Source: a virus. From it: 52,603 nt of DNA. The stretch is from the IMG/VR virus record IMGVR_UViG_3300021475_000018, positions 1 to 52,603 of that record; one strand, given 5' to 3'. The stretch's first letter is position 1; the number at the start of each line of letters is the position of its first letter. The notes beneath the pieces are model-generated. The model was not told where the DNA came from, made no database searches, and saw nothing but the letters and a program-made list of their open reading frames with translations. The translations under genes and the position numbers were made by a program. Below, piece after piece: positions 28,501 to 50,869 of this stretch.

Positions 28501-28598
28501 GGGGTTGACGCCCGCTTTGGAGTAGCGTACGTAAGCAGTGTGCGGTGGCATCTTGCTATCGCTGCCCTCCTTGGGCGTTTCCTCCCTATTGACTTGGC

Positions 28599-28629
28599 GG
28601 CCCCGCTGTACGACGCGGGGCCGTTCTTT
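28599..28629 (+). terminator. rho-independent terminator after the capsid gene
   Basis: GGCCCCGC pairs with GCGGGGCC around the 8-nt loop TGTACGAC, followed by GTTCTTTC. Lies between the converging capsid and ParB-like genes. Confidence 0.75.
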
Positions 28630-28631
28630 CA

Positions 28632-29531
28632 TCAGGCGGCCTTCGCCATCGGTGGCAGCCAATCGGGCGGCGCCGGCAGTTCCTCCCCAGGAGCCAAACG
28701 CGCGTTAGCCGGCCGGCGAAAGTCAATCACGGACAGCAACGCCCGCCCCGCCTCTTCTGCCTTCGGCCTGGGGCCTACCGAGCGCGCGGCCATGTCGATA
28801 CGCGGCCAACCCAGGTCAAGCAACCGGCGGGCGTGGTCACGAAACGCAGGGTAGTTGTGCACGAGCCACACAAAGCCAAGCGTCGCGTGTTCCGTTACCA
28901 GCGCATTCGGCGGGGCCAGCGTGGCGATCATTTCCAACGCGGTCACAAGCTCGCCCGGCGGTACAGGGGTTGCTCGTTTGGCGTAGCTTGCGCTGCCGTG
29001 ACCGTACAGCGATTTCAACGCGCCGACGCAAGCAAGTTTCGGCACGGTAAATTCGTCGCGTTGGTTGTTGGCGTCCACAACGGCCAAGCCGGCGTTCTGC
29101 ACGAGCCGGTTGAGCTGCACGGCGCTTTCGTCACCAGCCGCAACTTCCGCCATGAACAACATGGTTTGCGGCACCTTCCGCATTTTGGTGTTGCGCGAAA
29201 GAAAAATCTCGATTTCGCGCTTGCGGTCATGCACGTTGTAAATATCGCACGGAACGAACAGACGCGCGGACGCTTTCGCGCCTTCCCAGCGGTGCCGCCC
29301 GTCCACGACAAACAGCGCACCGTTTGCGCGCCGTACGACCATGAGCCGGCCGAACAGTGTCAAGTCGAAAGTCTTACCGATTTCCTTTACCAGCCGTGGG
29401 TTGCGCGGCTTCATTGCTTGATACGTCGTATCGACATTCAACAGTCCAATCGGAACCTCGGTTGGTTCCGGTTTTTCTTCGATGATAACGACGGGTTTCT
29501 GTTCCCAAGGGAACATCTTCGCGGTACTCAT
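28632..29531 (-). CDS. ParB/Srx-like domain protein, 299 aa
   Basis: The ATG at 29531 follows AGGAGCCGTACAA. Residues about 25-100 are a ParB N-terminal-type fold (GLLNVDTTYQAMKP, RLMVVRRANGALFVVDGRHRWEGAK), whose DGRHRW motif is the nucleotide-binding or nuclease core of this superfamily. The rest is helical with an HNHH-free DNA-binding-like region. The N-terminus has the FPWE motif (residues 7-10). Single-gene leftward unit with its own promoter. Could act in DNA partition, regulation or host nuclease; unproven. Confidence 0.7.
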   Translation of the reverse strand: MSTAKMFPWEQKPVVIIEEKPEPTEVPIGLLNVDTTYQAMKPRNPRLVKEIGKTFDLTLFGRLMVVRRANGALFVVDGRHRWEGAKASARLFVPCDIYNVHDRKREIEIFLSRNTKMRKVPQTMLFMAEVAAGDESAVQLNRLVQNAGLAVVDANNQRDEFTVPKLACVGALKSLYGHGSASYAKRATPVPPGELVTALEMIATLAPPNALVTEHATLGFVWLVHNYPAFRDHARRLLDLGWPRIDMAARSVGPRPKAEEAGRALLSVIDFRRPANARLAPGEELPAPPDWLPPMAKAA

Positions 29532-29570
29532 TTGTACGGCTCCTTTGCTAGCTGCGCCCCTACGTGAGTA

Positions 29571-29599
29571 CAAATACGGATGACGTGTGAATATGTCAA
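29571..29599 (-). promoter_or_regulatory. promoter for the ParB-like gene
   Basis: Minus-strand TTGACA (29599-29594), 17-bp spacer, TATTTG (29576-29571). Confidence 0.7.
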
Positions 29600-29680
29600 T
29601 ACCAAGCTTGACTTGCGGCGGCAAATCACCGCATGTGCGCACAACTGCACACTTCACAGTCAGGGCGGAGGGGGCGCTAC

Positions 29681-29926
29681 ATGCAGGGGTACTGGTGGGC
29701 ACGGACACCCGAAAATGCGCTATTTGTAGTCATGGTGGTGGGTGAAAAGGGCTATGTTCCCGGGGTGGAAGGTGCTATAGATTTAGGCGACTTTTTCATG
29801 ATCGAGCCCGTCCCATGGCCGCGACCCGCAACCCAAAGCCAAAATTCGGTTCTGCCGTCACCTGGGGCGCGTGCTCTCGTTGCAACGCCCGGGTCAAATA
29901 TTCTACCCTTTGTCGCGAGAGGTTGA
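29681..29926 (+). CDS. hypothetical protein, 81 aa
   Basis: GGAGGGGG lies before the ATG. The first about 50 residues (QGYWWARTPENALFVVMVVGEKGYVPGVEGAIDLGDF) are compact and beta-like. The last 30 lie in the same stretch as the start of the next gene in another frame and look less protein-like. It leads the rightward tail-adaptor unit. Unknown function. Confidence 0.55.
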   Translation: MQGYWWARTPENALFVVMVVGEKGYVPGVEGAIDLGDFFMIEPVPWPRPATQSQNSVLPSPGARALVATPGSNILPFVARG

Positions 29927-37053: not shown

Positions 37054-39080
37054 TCATTTGCGCATCCTATCCGCTTCGTACCCCTCGCAATCCAGCGGCA
37101 GCCCGGCAGTCCACGGCCGCGGCCGGCGCATAATTTCGCGCATCTGCTCTGAGCGCTGCTTGGCAATGTGAGCCGGCGCCAGCGAGAGTATGCTATCATA
37201 GACATCAAGGACCAACACAACATCCGGCAGCTCGTTCTCTATGTCAGCTTCCGCCGCGGTCACCAAGTCACGCGTACAGCTTGACAGAAGATTTCGAGCA
37301 GCGAACCGCCGAAAGCTTTCTGTCGCATCATGGCACCAAACTTCGCCCGGAAAAACTGCATTTCTCCGGTTGGCGAAATGTGTGCAGAGTAGTGCGGTAC
37401 CGCGCGACCGGACGGCAACAACATCCACACCGTACCATGACTGTCTTTTTGGAACGCGATTTTATTGTTGACTGGGAAGATACGGCCGTGCTGTTCATAG
37501 ATCGCAAATTTGAAGGCATCGGCCAAGTCGTACCAAAGCCGTACGAGTAGCGGGTTGGCTTGGCGATAACCGTTGATATCGATCATGGCTTTTTGGTCGG
37601 TTATCTCGTGACGCTTCAAACCGTTTTCCGCGGCCGTACGGATAAGGAACGCGAGATATGTACGCCAACCGAGCTGATAGTTGCCGCCAAGCGTGACGCT
37701 CTTGAATGTCTGCCGTTCTTTTGGATGCGTGGATTTGGTAGCGGTTTCTGGCAGGTTCAGACACTTCCGAGCGTTGTACATATACAAATCGCTGCCCGGC
37801 GTCGCAATGATATTTAAACGTTCCGTGTCGCCAGCGAGCCAAAGCGCGAAACGCAATTCCGCCTGGGAAGCATCGTTATCGCATACCATCCAGCCTGTAG
37901 GTGCCACGATGCAACCGCGAAGGCAGTCTGTCAGGGCGCTATTGCCTAGCGACGTATGACCCTGCTTCAGCCGGTCAATAAGCTGGTCTATCGTGGCGCG
38001 GCCTTCCTTGCCGTCGTACTTGCCGGACGGGCGCGCAATGTTGAACATATTCGCGCCTTCGGATGTGCCGCGCCCCGATCGCGCGCCGAAGTACCGTGTA
38101 GCGTCTTTGTAAAAACCGTTGACGTGCCGGTCTAGCAACGCTTGCGCTTTAAGCGGCGCGGAGCCACCCTCCGCCTGCAACAGCTCCAGAACAATCCGTA
38201 CGTCTGGGTGCAGGTTTTCGTCAGTAAGTTTTTCCGCGATAATGTGCTTCTGCGTATTCTCCAGTCCGGCAGCGCGGTTACCGCTATTGGCCCAATCGAG
38301 TATCCGCTGCCGCTGCGAAAGCTTGGTCACCGCGTTGTTGGTGATTTCCATAAGCTTCGCGGTGCTCTCCTGCTCGATTTCTTGCCGACGCATCGCAATC
38401 GCGGTTGCCAGATTAATATCGATCGGGAGCCCGATTTCGTTTTTACGCCATGTGCGCTCAAAGATCAGACGTTCGGCCGGTGACAGCGGAGGCAAGCGTG
38501 CGTCAACATCCATGAGGCATTCAACGTCGCGCAAGTTGTACGCGAGCAGCTTGACGAACGTTTCGATTTTTTCGTGGAACGTGCCGTCTTTCTGCGGCTT
38601 GCACGTCAGCGTCACGAGCGCGCGGCCTTGCGGGTCTTTGCCCCGGATACCAAGCGCCATACATAATTCATCAAGGCCGCCCGGGAACGCGATAGCTTGG
38701 GCGCGGCCCATTGTGCAATCAATCTTGCTCAAATCGATTTGTACGAACGGATTTTGCCGCTTAATCACGTTCACGTCGAAATTGGCGTGATGCGCAACGA
38801 AGCGCCGGCATTGCCGGATATCTTCGTAAAAGTCCGCCATCGTATGGGAGCCGATAGACGGATGTAATGTGCATGCAGTTTTGTACACACCGCGGAACCA
38901 CCAACACGCCGTGGTTATCTGGGTGGATGGGCATGCTGCATAGCGTCGCGCGCCCGCCGTCTTCAGGTTCGTACGGCTGCGTGTTTCTACATCGGCGAAT
39001 AAGTCGTCAAGCTGCGGCACGTAGCACGCTTTCAAAGTTGAGAGAGCGGGTAAAGCCCTTCGTCTGCCAATTCGATGCAC
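37054..39080 (-). CDS. DNA polymerase A, frameshifted near the C-terminus
   Basis: Family A polymerase with exonuclease. Exo motif at LFADVETRS, then DinB-free palm: motif A DNDASQAELRFALWLAGD, motif B ERQTFKSVTLGGNYQLG. The first frame stops at 37260 soon after FGGSLLEIFCQAV, exactly where such enzymes continue AxARDLL. The continuation (TRDLVTAAEAD, then motif C-like LDVYDSI) is in the -1 frame and runs to 37054. One base seems to be missing near 37274-37280. Start is GTG at 39080 or 39020; neither has a clear ribosome site. Motif C has Tyr-Asp-Ser in place of His-Asp-Glu. Confidence 0.85.
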
Positions 39081-39142
39081 CGCGCCGGGAAACCGGAAAA
39101 ATCGACGCGTTGACCATTCCCGCTACGTCCGGTTGACACTCT

Positions 39143-39172
39143 CAAAAAAGTGCCCGGGACCGAAACCCCGGG
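39143..39172 (-). terminator. rho-independent terminator after the ssDNA-binding gene
   Basis: Minus strand: CCCGGG, 8-nt loop, CCCGGG, then CACTTTTTTG. Ends the 42215-39182 leftward unit; the polymerase downstream then needs its own promoter or readthrough. Confidence 0.75.
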
Positions 39173-46601: not shown

Positions 46602-46781
46602 TTACCCTTTTTCAATGATGCGTCGCGCCGCCATCATCACTGTGGCTTCTTCCGTTATGGAAGGGCGGCGCTGTGTTGCTGCATACGTGCTCCAGTACAG
46701 CAACACGAATTTGTAGCGTTCGGCGCATGTCGAGCATTCGCACCGATGATCGTTGCCGTCTGGCGTGACTAATTTTGCCAT
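46602..46781 (-). CDS. small Cys-rich protein, 59 aa
   Basis: ATG at 46781 behind a variant leader (copy 6) whose 12-mer also encodes the end of the primase-helicase. CECSTC at residues 14-19 suggests a metal site. Basic C-terminus. Overlaps the primase-helicase stop by 13 bases. Confidence 0.6.
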   Translation of the reverse strand: MAKLVTPDGNDHRCECSTCAERYKFVLLYWSTYAATQRRPSITEEATVMMAARRIIEKG

Positions 46782-48832
46782 GGGTAGCTCTCCAGCTTGG
46801 TTGTCGGTGTTTGAACGGTCCAGTTAACCGTAAGAGGCTGTTGTACGTTTCCGGCGGGCGAATAAACCGCATAAAAAGGGCATCCGCGCATCGTACGGAA
46901 GTGTCCCGAATTTAGCAAGCTCTGCATGCCCTCTTTTTCAAATAATTTTAGGGCAGCATCCTTGCTGATGACGAAGGCCGGCACGGAACCGTGTACGGAT
47001 GCACCCAGTTCGGCGGCGACACTATCAAAGGGAACCATGTTGCCGGCGCGAAGCGCGTCCATTCCGCCGCTAGTGACGCCGGGCAGCATCGCGCCGAGCC
47101 GTATCATGGCACTCTGTTCGCGTTGCTGCGGTGTTGTAATGATTTCGCGTTTAAACACATTCACCGTTGTTGCACGCCCCTTGCTGTCGTTGCCGTAGTG
47201 TTCGGAAATAATTCTCCCGGTGTAGCTCTTTGCCTTTGGCGCGCCGCGCGCTTTACCGCAGTCGATTGACACCGTGTCTTGCCGGCCAGCGGTGACGCGA
47301 TACATGAAACCGCTATTGCCGGCCTTGGCGCCGTTGCCTTTCTGCCAAGCATCCTCATTGCCGAGCGGCAAATGGTCCGTAACAACCATCGCTGCGCCCG
47401 TACGAAATGCGACATTTTTCAAAATGAACATCGCCTTTAAAACGCTTTCGGTATCGTTGTCGGCAAAGCAAAGCCCCGACGACGCCCAGGTATCCAGCAC
47501 GAGCAAGTCAACGCGCATGCCCATGGCGGCCATCGCAGCAACTTGGCCTAGGCAATCTTGTTCGAAGGAGCCGGAATTGACGCGCGGTATTAGATGGAAG
47601 CGTGAAGCTAGCTCGTTGCCGTTCGGTTCCTGCCGGATAAGATGCCTTACGCGTCGTTCTGTGCCGTAATCGTCTTCAGCGGCAACCCATAAGACATGAC
47701 CGTCCGTACGTTCCACTTCCGCGTCAAGCCATGCTCGGCAAGTGAGATAAGACACGCAAAGGTCGCTAACGACAGATGATTTTCCGGCTCCGCTGTGTCC
47801 GGTAAAGAAGTGAACTTCGCTACACAAAACGCGTTGATATAGTAGCCATGGTAACTCATTTGTGCTGTCCTCCAGTTTCAGCTCAAAGCCCGTACGAGCC
47901 TGCAACGTCGGCGCCGTTTGTCCGTCATGCAAACCTTGAAGAAACGTACGGCGCGACATGATAGCTTGCATTATCAGATTGCCGCGCAACACCGGCAACT
48001 GATCATGGCGCATGATTTCTTCGCCCAGGACGCGCCCGCCGTGACCTTCGGATAACGAGTGACCCGCGCTGGTTATCGCAGTTTCGATTTCCTCTCGTGT
48101 GCACATGCCGTTCTGCTCGGCGAACTTCAGCACCCCGACAAGCGAAAAAATCGTGGACCCGCGGCCCTCCGTACGGCCCATCAAGTCTTGCTTGAGCAGT
48201 CCTAAGTATCGTTTAGTGGCGTCGCGGCCGGCTTGCCATTCATCTTGCGTTCTAGGAATAGCTTCTGAAAGTTCGTCAGCTCCAGCGGTTTCGTGCTCGG
48301 CTCCGAACCGCAGGGACGTACCAGCCTGACGCGGCACTTCTGCAAGAATATGCTGAAGCTGTGCTGTTGTAATTTGCGGCCACTCTGCATCCCAATTCTC
48401 CCATTCGTACGGCTGTCCGGTGTCTTTGTGCGGGCCGAAGGCGACGAATTGTCCGCCCATCAATTGGAGCTTATCGCCGTCCGGAAATGTGAAAGTGCGA
48501 CCCTGTACGGGTGCGTCACGCAGAAAGAACGGTATCAGGAAACGCGGCCGTCTTCCCCATCGGATAGGAGTGTTCGGGCCGAGTATAGTACGAAACGCCT
48601 GCAAGAGACGCCCAGACATTTCGGGGTTTGATACGTCACAGTCAAAAGCGGTAAGGCCGTTGTCTCCGCAGCGGAGGCCCACGCTGCCGGCGCCTGGGTG
48701 GGGGATTGGTGATGTCCAGACATTCCAGCCGTCTCCTATGGGAGCTTTAGAACCCCTTGCGATAGCTAGCGGAAACAGTCCGCGCTGTACGGCTTGCGTC
48801 CAGAAGTCCTGAATGGTAAGAGGTAAAGGCAA
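46769..48832 (-). CDS. primase-polymerase / DnaB-type helicase, 687 aa
   Basis: TTG start (TGATTG, GGGGGC site). N-terminal about 210 residues resemble a primase-polymerase (TAFDCDVSNPEM metal-binding Asps at 64/66, RWGRRPRFLIPF). A RecA-like ATPase follows: Walker A GHSGAGKSS (345-353), LLVLDTWASSG Walker B and TDHLP. So it can prime and unwind at the fork. Ends ESYPWQN, one copy of the YPWQ motif. A bidirectional terminator is just upstream, so expression is controlled there. Confidence 0.85.
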   Translation of the reverse strand: MPLPLTIQDFWTQAVQRGLFPLAIARGSKAPIGDGWNVWTSPIPHPGAGSVGLRCGDNGLTAFDCDVSNPEMSGRLLQAFRTILGPNTPIRWGRRPRFLIPFFLRDAPVQGRTFTFPDGDKLQLMGGQFVAFGPHKDTGQPYEWENWDAEWPQITTAQLQHILAEVPRQAGTSLRFGAEHETAGADELSEAIPRTQDEWQAGRDATKRYLGLLKQDLMGRTEGRGSTIFSLVGVLKFAEQNGMCTREEIETAITSAGHSLSEGHGGRVLGEEIMRHDQLPVLRGNLIMQAIMSRRTFLQGLHDGQTAPTLQARTGFELKLEDSTNELPWLLYQRVLCSEVHFFTGHSGAGKSSVVSDLCVSYLTCRAWLDAEVERTDGHVLWVAAEDDYGTERRVRHLIRQEPNGNELASRFHLIPRVNSGSFEQDCLGQVAAMAAMGMRVDLLVLDTWASSGLCFADNDTESVLKAMFILKNVAFRTGAAMVVTDHLPLGNEDAWQKGNGAKAGNSGFMYRVTAGRQDTVSIDCGKARGAPKAKSYTGRIISEHYGNDSKGRATTVNVFKREIITTPQQREQSAMIRLGAMLPGVTSGGMDALRAGNMVPFDSVAAELGASVHGSVPAFVISKDAALKLFEKEGMQSLLNSGHFRTMRGCPFYAVYSPAGNVQQPLTVNWTVQTPTTKLESYPWQN
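46786..46797 (-). promoter_or_regulatory. variant leader hairpin (copy 6, compensatory change)
   Basis: AGCTGGAGAGCT: same GGAG tetraloop, but the outer C-G pair is A-T. The hairpin lies within the primase-helicase tail and serves the ATG at 46781. Confidence 0.65.
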
Positions 48833-49131: not shown

Positions 49132-49656
49132 TTACGACGATTGCCACGGATAAGTCAAATTGCTTTCCATGGTATTTTGTACCGTTTCGCAGCCTATGGC
49201 GCGCATGGCCGCCGGCAACTCGTATTGCGCGAGCCGGGCTTTCAAGACTTGTACTTCGGCGAACAGTTCGCTGTTGCGTGAGTACAGCCCAGCTAGTTCC
49301 TCCGCCACCGTTGCTTTGTACATACGAAGCTGTTCCAGCTCCGTAGTATCAATGGGTGCTTGCGCCGGGGTGCTCTGTACGGTGGGCCTTGAAGTGCCGC
49401 CGCGGGAGCCCGGGCCGCCATTTTTGCGCTCAGCGCGACAAGTTGGGCAGTTGCGGAGCAGCAAGCCGGCATTCTTGGTAAAGCCTTGCAAGGCTTTCCG
49501 TGAAACGCTCAGGCTGATCTCGCCGCGGCACGTCGCGCATGGTCGGGTTACGCGGTATAGGTGGATGTAATCGCCGTTCCAGTATTTCGTGGTTGCTTCA
49601 CCGCCGCTCCAGCCTGCGGGGAGCGGACCGTCGAAAGGTGCTTGCATGTTGGCCAT
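49132..49656 (-). CDS. Cys-containing protein with YPWQ tail, 174 aa
   Basis: The ATG at 49656 overlaps the upstream stop (TGATG). Zinc-ribbon-like region: CATCRGEI and CPTCRAE, with Lys/Arg loops. A coiled-coil-like second half (EQLRMYKATVAEELAGLYSRNSELFAEVQVLKARLAQYELP) follows, ending YPWQSS. May be a multi-contact adaptor. Unassigned. Confidence 0.65.
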   Translation of the reverse strand: MANMQAPFDGPLPAGWSGGEATTKYWNGDYIHLYRVTRPCATCRGEISLSVSRKALQGFTKNAGLLLRNCPTCRAERKNGGPGSRGGTSRPTVQSTPAQAPIDTTELEQLRMYKATVAEELAGLYSRNSELFAEVQVLKARLAQYELPAAMRAIGCETVQNTMESNLTYPWQSS

Positions 49657-49790
49657 CAGTTTTTCCGCATGTCTTGAATTTCTTCGGACAGCTTCTTCCA
49701 CGCGTTCACTATGACAGGATATTTTGCGCGCCAGCGTCCAAGCATGTCGCGAAGTTCGTCGTCAGTTGGCAGCCTGCTAGGTAGCTTCAT
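49656..49790 (-). CDS. small hypothetical protein, 44 aa
   Basis: The ATG at 49790 directly follows the previous stop, and its TGA overlaps the next ATG. Helical and charged (DDELRDMLGRWRAKYPVIV). Unassigned; supported by tight coupling. Confidence 0.6.
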   Translation of the reverse strand: MKLPSRLPTDDELRDMLGRWRAKYPVIVNAWKKLSEEIQDMRKN

Positions 49791-49947: not shown

Positions 49948-50130
49948 TTACTCCTCCGCCTTCTCGTTTGTGCGCAGGTACTCCAATCGCCCAGCCCAGT
50001 AGCGATCTTGCTGCTCTGCATCGTACACCGTGACGTTTGCCACGCTTCCGGTGAAAGAAGTATCCAAGCCGTCGCGCAAATGCAAACGACCTTGCGAGCC
50101 GGTTACTAGGTAATGCGTTGGGTATTTCAT
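49948..50130 (-). CDS. hypothetical early protein, 60 aa
   Basis: ATG at 50130 behind leader copy 4. Small beta-like protein (YPTHYLVTGSQGRLHLRDG, VANVTVYDAEQQDRYWAGRLEYL). First gene of the leftward unit that includes the sponge and the primase-helicase. Confidence 0.65.
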   Translation of the reverse strand: MKYPTHYLVTGSQGRLHLRDGLDTSFTGSVANVTVYDAEQQDRYWAGRLEYLRTNEKAEE

Positions 50131-50134
50131 TTGT

Positions 50135-50146
50135 CGCTCTCCAGCG
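50135..50146 (-). promoter_or_regulatory. leader hairpin presenting the Shine-Dalgarno (copy 4)
   Basis: CGCTGGAGAGCG on the minus strand, before ATG 50130. Confidence 0.7.
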
Positions 50147-50164: not shown

Positions 50165-50192
50165 ACAATAGCAGGTTTTAGGTGCCTGTCAA
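50165..50192 (-). promoter_or_regulatory. leftward promoter of the 50 kb control region
   Basis: Minus-strand TTGACA (50192-50187), 16-bp spacer, TATTGT (50170-50165). The 19-bp palindrome at 50193-50211 touches its -35, so it is probably regulated. Confidence 0.7.
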
Positions 50193-50211
50193 CACCTTAA
50201 TTATTAAGGTG
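50193..50211. repeat. 19-bp palindrome
   Basis: CACCTTAAT-T-ATTAAGGTG, perfect on both sides of the central T. Abuts the -35 box of the leftward promoter. Operator or part of an origin. Confidence 0.7.
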
Positions 50212-50223
50212 CTGTGAATTCGT

Positions 50224-50299
50224 CTTTTCACCATAAATTTACAGTAAATTTACAACAGAACTTGCTGTAAATTTATGGTGAAAAGCTGTAAATTTACAG
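50224..50299. other. AT-rich inverted repeats, candidate origin or switch
   Basis: A perfect 21-bp inverted repeat (50224-50244 and 50265-50285), with inner GTAAATTTAC at 50244-50253 and a 14-bp palindrome CTGTAAATTTACAG at 50286-50299. The core TAAATTTA occurs four times. Located between diverging early transcripts; typical of iteron origins or operator clusters. The gap 50131-50422 has no gene that I could support. Confidence 0.6.
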
Positions 50300-50422
50300 C
50301 GTACATAATCAATCAGCCCCCGAAGTGATGGGGTGTGAAGAGACGAACGAATACACACCCACTAGACGGGGGGACGGAAGCGGAGTAACGTCGAAAAAGA
50401 AACACGGTACGGAAATACCGCC

Positions 50423-50869
50423 ATGACAAAACTCCCGGCTACCCGGCTTTCACAGTATGCGATGCAATCGGCTTGTGAAGAGATTGCACGGATACGGCCA
50501 TTCGTACGGAAGGAAAGCACGGCTTTGACAACGGCTTGCAGACAGGCGGGCATGCCTATGGAGCTGGCGGAAGTATGCGGCGGACTACTCGCCTCCGTAG
50601 TTGATGATTTAGTTGCTGCAAGCGGCTTGCCCAAATCGAGCTTTGAGCGTACCAAGCGAATGGTTCGCGTTTTGAAGACCGCCCAGGAGCCGGCCAGTCA
50701 CGCGCTACGGTTGGCCATGGCAGCGTCGCCAATCAACGGGGAAGCGGCTGTGATGCACTGGGACGCTATTTGCGAAGATCGCGAAAGAGGCAAGTTAGCG
50801 TGGCTGCTCGGCATGAGCACTGAGGCAGCTTGGAAGTACGGCAAGCGCATGGAAAAGATGACGGCATGA
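50423..50869 (+). CDS. hypothetical helical protein, 148 aa
   Basis: ATG at 50423 preceded by CGGTA-CGGAAA-TACCG (50405-50420), which places the Shine-Dalgarno in a loop. Helical, with many Ala/Glu/Arg, a Cys pair, and DAICEDRERGKLAWLLGMSTEAAWKYGKRMEKM at the end. It is the first rightward gene beside the repeats, so a replication initiator or regulator is possible. No family recognised. Confidence 0.65.
   Translation: MTKLPATRLSQYAMQSACEEIARIRPFVRKESTALTTACRQAGMPMELAEVCGGLLASVVDDLVAASGLPKSSFERTKRMVRVLKTAQEPASHALRLAMAASPINGEAAVMHWDAICEDRERGKLAWLLGMSTEAAWKYGKRMEKMTA

Follow-up and report, generated by a model that had tools for sequence, protein, structure and literature searches.

A palindromic site cluster and its candidate zinc-finger/coiled-coil reader at a possible replication origin of uncultivated phages

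The lambda origin contains four repeats bound by the dimeric O protein, with an A+T-rich stretch adjoining them, and this organization is also found in Stx phages (PMC7466680). In the pRN1 replicons, a Prim-Pol-helicase protein is accompanied by a conserved stem-loop, located 3' of the replication gene, that is required for replication, and such stem-loops have been proposed as origins, several phages included (PMC4234260). The repressor sites of cluster A mycobacteriophages are asymmetric, tied to lysogeny, and serve as operators and stoperators (PMC9283540, PMC6550527). In phage T7, the tail of the gp4 helicase binds the gp5 polymerase, and the T7 tails are highly acidic (PMC8472574).

We analyzed a phage DNA of 52,603 bases from an IMG/VR virus record, referred to here as the window. 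Its genome is circular or circularly permuted, since a second contig joins the two ends of the window with 8 bases between them. To our knowledge, no phage of this group has been cultivated, nor has an origin been described for any of them. The site region separates leftward replication genes from a rightward gene set that begins with a conserved gene for a 148-residue protein of unassigned function (50423-50869, plus strand; the 50423 protein). The leftward genes encode a Prim-Pol-AAA helicase fusion of 687 residues with Prim-Pol and AAA_25 matches (46772-48832, minus strand), a helicase, a DUF2800 exonuclease, an Enc34-type ssDNA-binding protein, and an A-family polymerase, while the terminase and head genes run rightward for the most part; gene calls other than those named come from a simple codon model. 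A leftward cassette within the mostly rightward half (about 22.9-29.7 kb) contains a gene for a ParB-like protein (28635-29708, minus strand). No regulator domain was seen in either gene flanking the site region (49948-50130, minus strand, and 50423-50869).

The sequence TAAATTTA occurs four times (at 50234, 50245, 50268, and 50289), always in the intergenic region, where 0.01 copies are expected, and nowhere else in the 52,603 bases. A perfect 21-bp inverted repeat (50224-50244 and 50265-50285) with a 20-nt spacer is also present; when the intergenic region was put through 300 dinucleotide shuffles, perfect arms reached a length of at most 12. The repeats are thus real, and the initial annotation was correct in describing the inverted repeat, the fourfold shared sequence, and an AT-rich location between divergent early gene sets (69% A+T, compared with 42% for the genome; the sites, too, are rich in A+T). 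The core is more accurately seen as four palindromic sites near TGTRAATTYACA, with centre spacings of 11, 23, and 21 bp. Predicted binding site 1 (CCATAAATTTACAG, 50231-50244) has a homologous site in the group A relatives, site 2 (CAGTAAATTTACAA, 50242-50255) is an additional copy at a distance of 11 bp from it, and site 3 (CTGTAAATTTATGG, 50265-50278) pairs with site 1 as the perfect 21-bp inverted repeat. Site 4 is a perfect 16-bp palindrome, GCTGTAAATTTACAGC (50285-50300), of which the 14-bp palindrome reported earlier (50286-50299) is only the core. The sequence GCTGTAAATTTACAGC is also found in L034-L043, except L038, mostly as single sites. The 19-bp palindrome CACCTTAATtATTAAGGTG (50193-50211), for which 0.01 are expected allowing up to 3 mismatches, is present as annotated, and it abuts the leftward -35 box, a minus-strand TTGACA at 50192-50187. 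Relatives do not conserve it, and it is a separate element, apart from the four-site core. A search of the inverted repeats against Rfam gave only microRNA models, far below the gathering score. A LexA-like box was rejected, as the CTG-to-CAG spacing is 8 here and 10 in the E. coli consensus.

Beside site 4 there is a conserved hairpin, which the initial annotation did not mention, at 50317-50373 (plus strand), with outer arms that start at 50317 and end at 50373 and an inner stem of 50331-50337 and 50354-50360. The pairing is maintained among relatives, with 4 pairs altered on both sides compared with 0.9 in shuffles. Site 4 is the first site beside the hairpin, is conserved in all group A phages, and lies at a fixed distance from it. 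The TAAATTTA-type sites cluster only at this locus, at offsets of 5, 26, and 49/50 from the hairpin anchor in the three phages measured, and the same site spacings recur in further phages. Phages with other protein subtypes carry different GC-rich hairpins. The hairpin was rejected as a terminator, since neither strand has a T-run.

The two flanking promoters are guesses from consensus. The predicted leftward promoter (50165-50192, minus strand) has a TATTGT -10 box (50170-50165) in addition to the -35 box given above, and is kept in a relative that lacks the sites. The predicted rightward promoter (50363-50391, plus strand) has a weak consensus, with a -35-like TAGACG (50363-50368) and a -10-like TAACGT (50386-50391); the CTAGAC at its -35 position is nearly invariant across group A. 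Another motif, [AC]GCTGGAGAG, occurs in the window at 50146, 46797, 45204, and 36101 on the minus strand and at 1169 and 51379 on the plus strand. Five copies are in a AACCGCTGGAGAGCG-like leader directly before start codons, downstream of TTGAC-type promoters, and the copy at 46797 is within the primase gene. The two leaders flanking the divergent region have 20 identical bases in common, in opposite orientation.

Which protein reads the sites? It had been stated that no recognized repressor or initiator is nearby except, perhaps, the 50423 protein. This is literally true, but an unrecognized candidate, P0002, is encoded about 0.6 kb from the sites. P0002 has 174 residues (49135-49656, minus strand, stop codon at 49132-49134), with the start set at the ATG at 49656, although the GTG farther upstream, at 49701, could also be the start. 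It has a CxxC...CxxC zinc-finger-like N-terminal domain, a coiled coil, and the C-terminal tip YPWQSS, and the family pattern is CxxC...CxxC/H, coiled coil, and PW tip. Searches of PHROGs, Pfam, and the PDB with the family gave coiled-coil matches only, and no relative was confirmed in bacterial genomes. Nor did isolated phages give any tblastn match to P0002, the primase, or the 50423 protein, in collections that may omit records close to the window's own genome. The AlphaFold2 model (mean pLDDT 82.6) surrounds the cysteines (residues 17-78) with three strands and some short helices, followed by a helix at 104-155; the N-terminal domain modelled alone has a pLDDT of 85.1. No confident structural neighbour was found for the full model or the lone domain, which does not make the fold new; the best rows for the domain were CarD/CdnL N-terminal domains, with Z of 3.4 over 52 residues, within noise. 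Because the model has no confident structural neighbour, the case for DNA binding by P0002 rests on covariation.

We found 14 near-complete relatives with the same locus and differing repeat sets, and a primase search gave 28 loci. Nearly all of those reaching far enough share the divergent arrangement with a 50423 homologue, and the intergenic repeats vary by phage. Ten records, including the window and with two nearly identical, have the TGTRAATTYACA type; the types in other phages include, among others, TCCYTARGGA, GTCYTARGAC, and AATCCATSTA. Across 22 phages, zinc-domain similarity tracks that of the intergenic region, with r = 0.81 and a partial correlation of 0.80 given the primase and the 50423 protein. 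The permutation p is 0.0002, and without the TAAATTTA group the partial correlation is 0.52 (p = 0.0002); these p-values assume exchangeable phages, relatedness enters through the partial correlations only, and the phages are few. The primase and the 50423 protein hardly track the intergenic similarity. In an unbiased comparison covering 15 genomes and 30 gene families shared among them, the P0002 family came first, with a partial r of 0.78, compared with 0.38 for the next family and 0.07 for the 50423 protein. The closest relative of the window, L006, has a primase with 94% identity and a 99% identical 50423 protein, but no TAAATTTA sites. Since this nearly identical homologue adjoins quite different repeats, the earlier suggestion of the 50423 protein as reader is contradicted, and we rejected it.

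A protein-only search with P0002 returned nine contigs, including the newly examined L052, and all nine have sites in the predicted place. Exact TCCYTARGGA sites are present in 3/3 genomes with the matching protein and in none of the 12 others, and exact GTCYTARGAC sites in 2/2 and 0/13, respectively; the exact motifs of subtypes D1 and D2 are restricted to genomes encoding the matching protein. Two natural swaps, the window compared with L006 and L018 compared with L026, have C-termini and primase tips in common, while the zinc domain and the repeats differ. As far as sequence comparison can tell, related phages swap the sites together with the predicted DNA-reading end of the P0002-type protein. 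We consider it likely that P0002-type proteins read these sites, and the four palindromes are most likely docking sites for P0002.

In L007, L008, L009, L011, and L022, TCCYTARGGA palindromes are located within the -35/-10 spacer of repeated early promoters, and several phages have D1 sites in spacers such as TTGACAG-TCCCTAGGGA-CGTGTGTACA. These spacer motifs mark a predicted dispersed promoter regulon in subtype D1 phages.

The C-terminal tip of P0002 resembles that of the adjacent primase-helicase, which ends in LESYPWQN, so that both have a PWQ tip. Tails of the form [hydrophobic]PW were counted in 66 of 814 coding-strand ORFs and 7 of 769 on the other strand, counts that are descriptive, as the ORFs overlap and the genomes are related. 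Three unrelated types of DNA methyltransferase have MPWE-like or WPWE tips (L010:7631-8434, L018:10803-11291, and L022:9917-10528), which resemble the primase-helicase tip.

GC skew had been suggested as a check for an origin. The minima do fall at the locus: among 15 genomes, 9 to 10 have the detrended minimum at most 300 bp away, and all have it no farther than 2.6 kb. At first look this appeared decisive, but gene orientation flips twice, once at the locus and once near the antipode, which confounds the signal, and we dropped it as proof of an origin once the strand switch near the antipode was seen. When the model includes gene strand, the locus continues to rank first as origin among 50 positions, and 14 of 15 genomes are positive; if only third codon positions are considered, the replichore term becomes weak (9/15 genomes), and another position scores best.

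We propose that this element serves as the recognition part of a type-specific phage replication origin bound by P0002, and we give this reading, as well as origin function of the locus itself, a probability of about 0.5. It is supported by the unique cluster, the fixed hairpin offsets, the compensated hairpin, the shared tip, the enrichment of PW tips, and the skew minima at the locus. The initial guess is partly supported, and its better half, the iteron origin, gains support: the unique locus, its rigid geometry with the hairpin, and a cognate protein with the primase-helicase tip favour it, but the skew does so only with the confounding by gene orientation. Since the skew argument weakened on inspection, a purely regulatory role keeps appreciable weight. 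P0002 could regulate both divergent early promoters as well as its own operon and play no part at an origin, its sites being phage-specific like those of immunity repressors. This is the main rival, because the cognate motif of one subtype sits inside promoter spacers, although we think it somewhat unlikely. The paralogous D1 motif, located in the spacers of several dispersed promoters, has the look of a transcription regulator's site, and it is found there even in L011 and L022, whose divergent locus pairs with another subtype. The window sites are between two predicted promoters, and in L015, L025, and L033 a P0002 homologue is the first gene past the sites. However, the window sites lie clear of both promoter cores, no other promoter in the genome contains TAAATTTA, and the geometry is fixed to the hairpin rather than to the first leftward gene. 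Furthermore, a pure regulator would have no need of the primase-helicase tip. Origin and operator roles may both hold within one protein family.

The proximity of P0002 to the sites, less than 1 kb away within the same exchanged stretch, raises the question of whether another phage or host protein reads them while P0002 covaries by linkage. This is improbable, as other linked genes, for the primase and the 50423 protein, do not covary, the leader and promoter that separate the two segments are conserved between the window and L006, and the D1 motif is also found kilobases away, only in genomes encoding the D1 protein. A lambda-type bistable switch, which had been offered along with the iteron origin, or a plasmid-like partition site would also place palindromic sites between divergent genes, and a ParB-like protein is encoded in the window. 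But we recognized neither a repressor pair nor a helix-turn-helix regulator nor an integrase, and only the P0002 family stood out in the covariation test, which makes either of these very improbable. ParB partition was rejected because no other family among the 30 compared came near P0002 in that test, despite the ParB-like gene. No integrase or lysogeny gene was found among the called genes at E 0.001, a threshold at which a diverged copy could be missed.

In the proposed P0002-dependent origin, the zinc domain at the N-terminus would bind the four palindromic sites, and P0002 would dimerize, probably through the coiled coil. With about one or two helical turns from one site to the next, the bound protein could form a compact nucleoprotein complex beside the hairpin and the A+T-rich stretch. 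The PW tip shared with the adjacent primase-helicase would then help to gather the phage replication machinery at the locus, and P0002 probably starts genome copying at the site cluster. The same complex probably also affects both flanking early promoters. More tentatively, the family may be a modular origin recognizer, a zinc-finger/coiled-coil family without known relatives, in which a swappable N-terminal domain sets the origin sequence type, the PW tip is a docking code shared by helicase-primase, methyltransferases, and other proteins, and one branch turned into a dispersed promoter regulator.

The pairing of repeat sets with protein subtypes makes origin recognition testable, as about seven natural protein types with their site sets are available. 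If the proposal is true, a phage lineage can change its origin or early-switch identity by swapping half a gene and the cognate sites, and the results point to a motif at the C-terminus through which proteins dock to a replication hub.

Two sRNA matches were observed elsewhere in the window. Rfam RF02496 (Atu_At1, a Rhizobiales sRNA) matches 39039-39148 on the minus strand with 88 bits (cut-off 60), between the polymerase and ssDNA-binding protein genes, and also the genome of L006 (L054), which points to a host among the rhizobia and to an sRNA carried by the phage. RF00519 (suhB/mmgR) matches 28557-28638 on the plus strand with 58 bits (cut-off 41), in an intergenic gap, and is also found in L054; a 53-bp stretch at this spot shows 91% identity with unannotated sequence from Bradyrhizobium phage ppBeUSDA76-1.

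How does this locus compare with the described systems? The resemblance to T7 is a looser analogy, in C-terminal tails of replication proteins, with a short PW[E/Q]-like tip here. As in cluster A mycobacteriophages, type-specific pairs of protein and site diversify among related phages, and some sites are dispersed, here those of subtype D1; however, the sites here are palindromic, the TAAATTTA set is at one locus, and no lysogeny genes were recognized. With lambda (PMC7466680), the locus shares several short repeats clustered at one place in the genome, A+T-rich surroundings, and a candidate phage-encoded initiator. In contrast to lambda, no O or P homologue was found, apart from coiled-coil matches P0002 lacks relatives in PHROGs and Pfam and close ones among solved structures, and the sites (50231-50300) are upstream of the candidate initiator gene (49135-49656) rather than inside it. 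Furthermore, the helicase is a phage Prim-Pol fusion, and there is a conserved hairpin. The pRN1 replicons differ in needing no iteron cluster and in having an SF3 helicase, where the match here is AAA_25, and the hairpin described here is in the divergent region alongside the repeats; what the two have in common is a Prim-Pol-helicase replication protein together with a hairpin, which in these phages is conserved with covariation.
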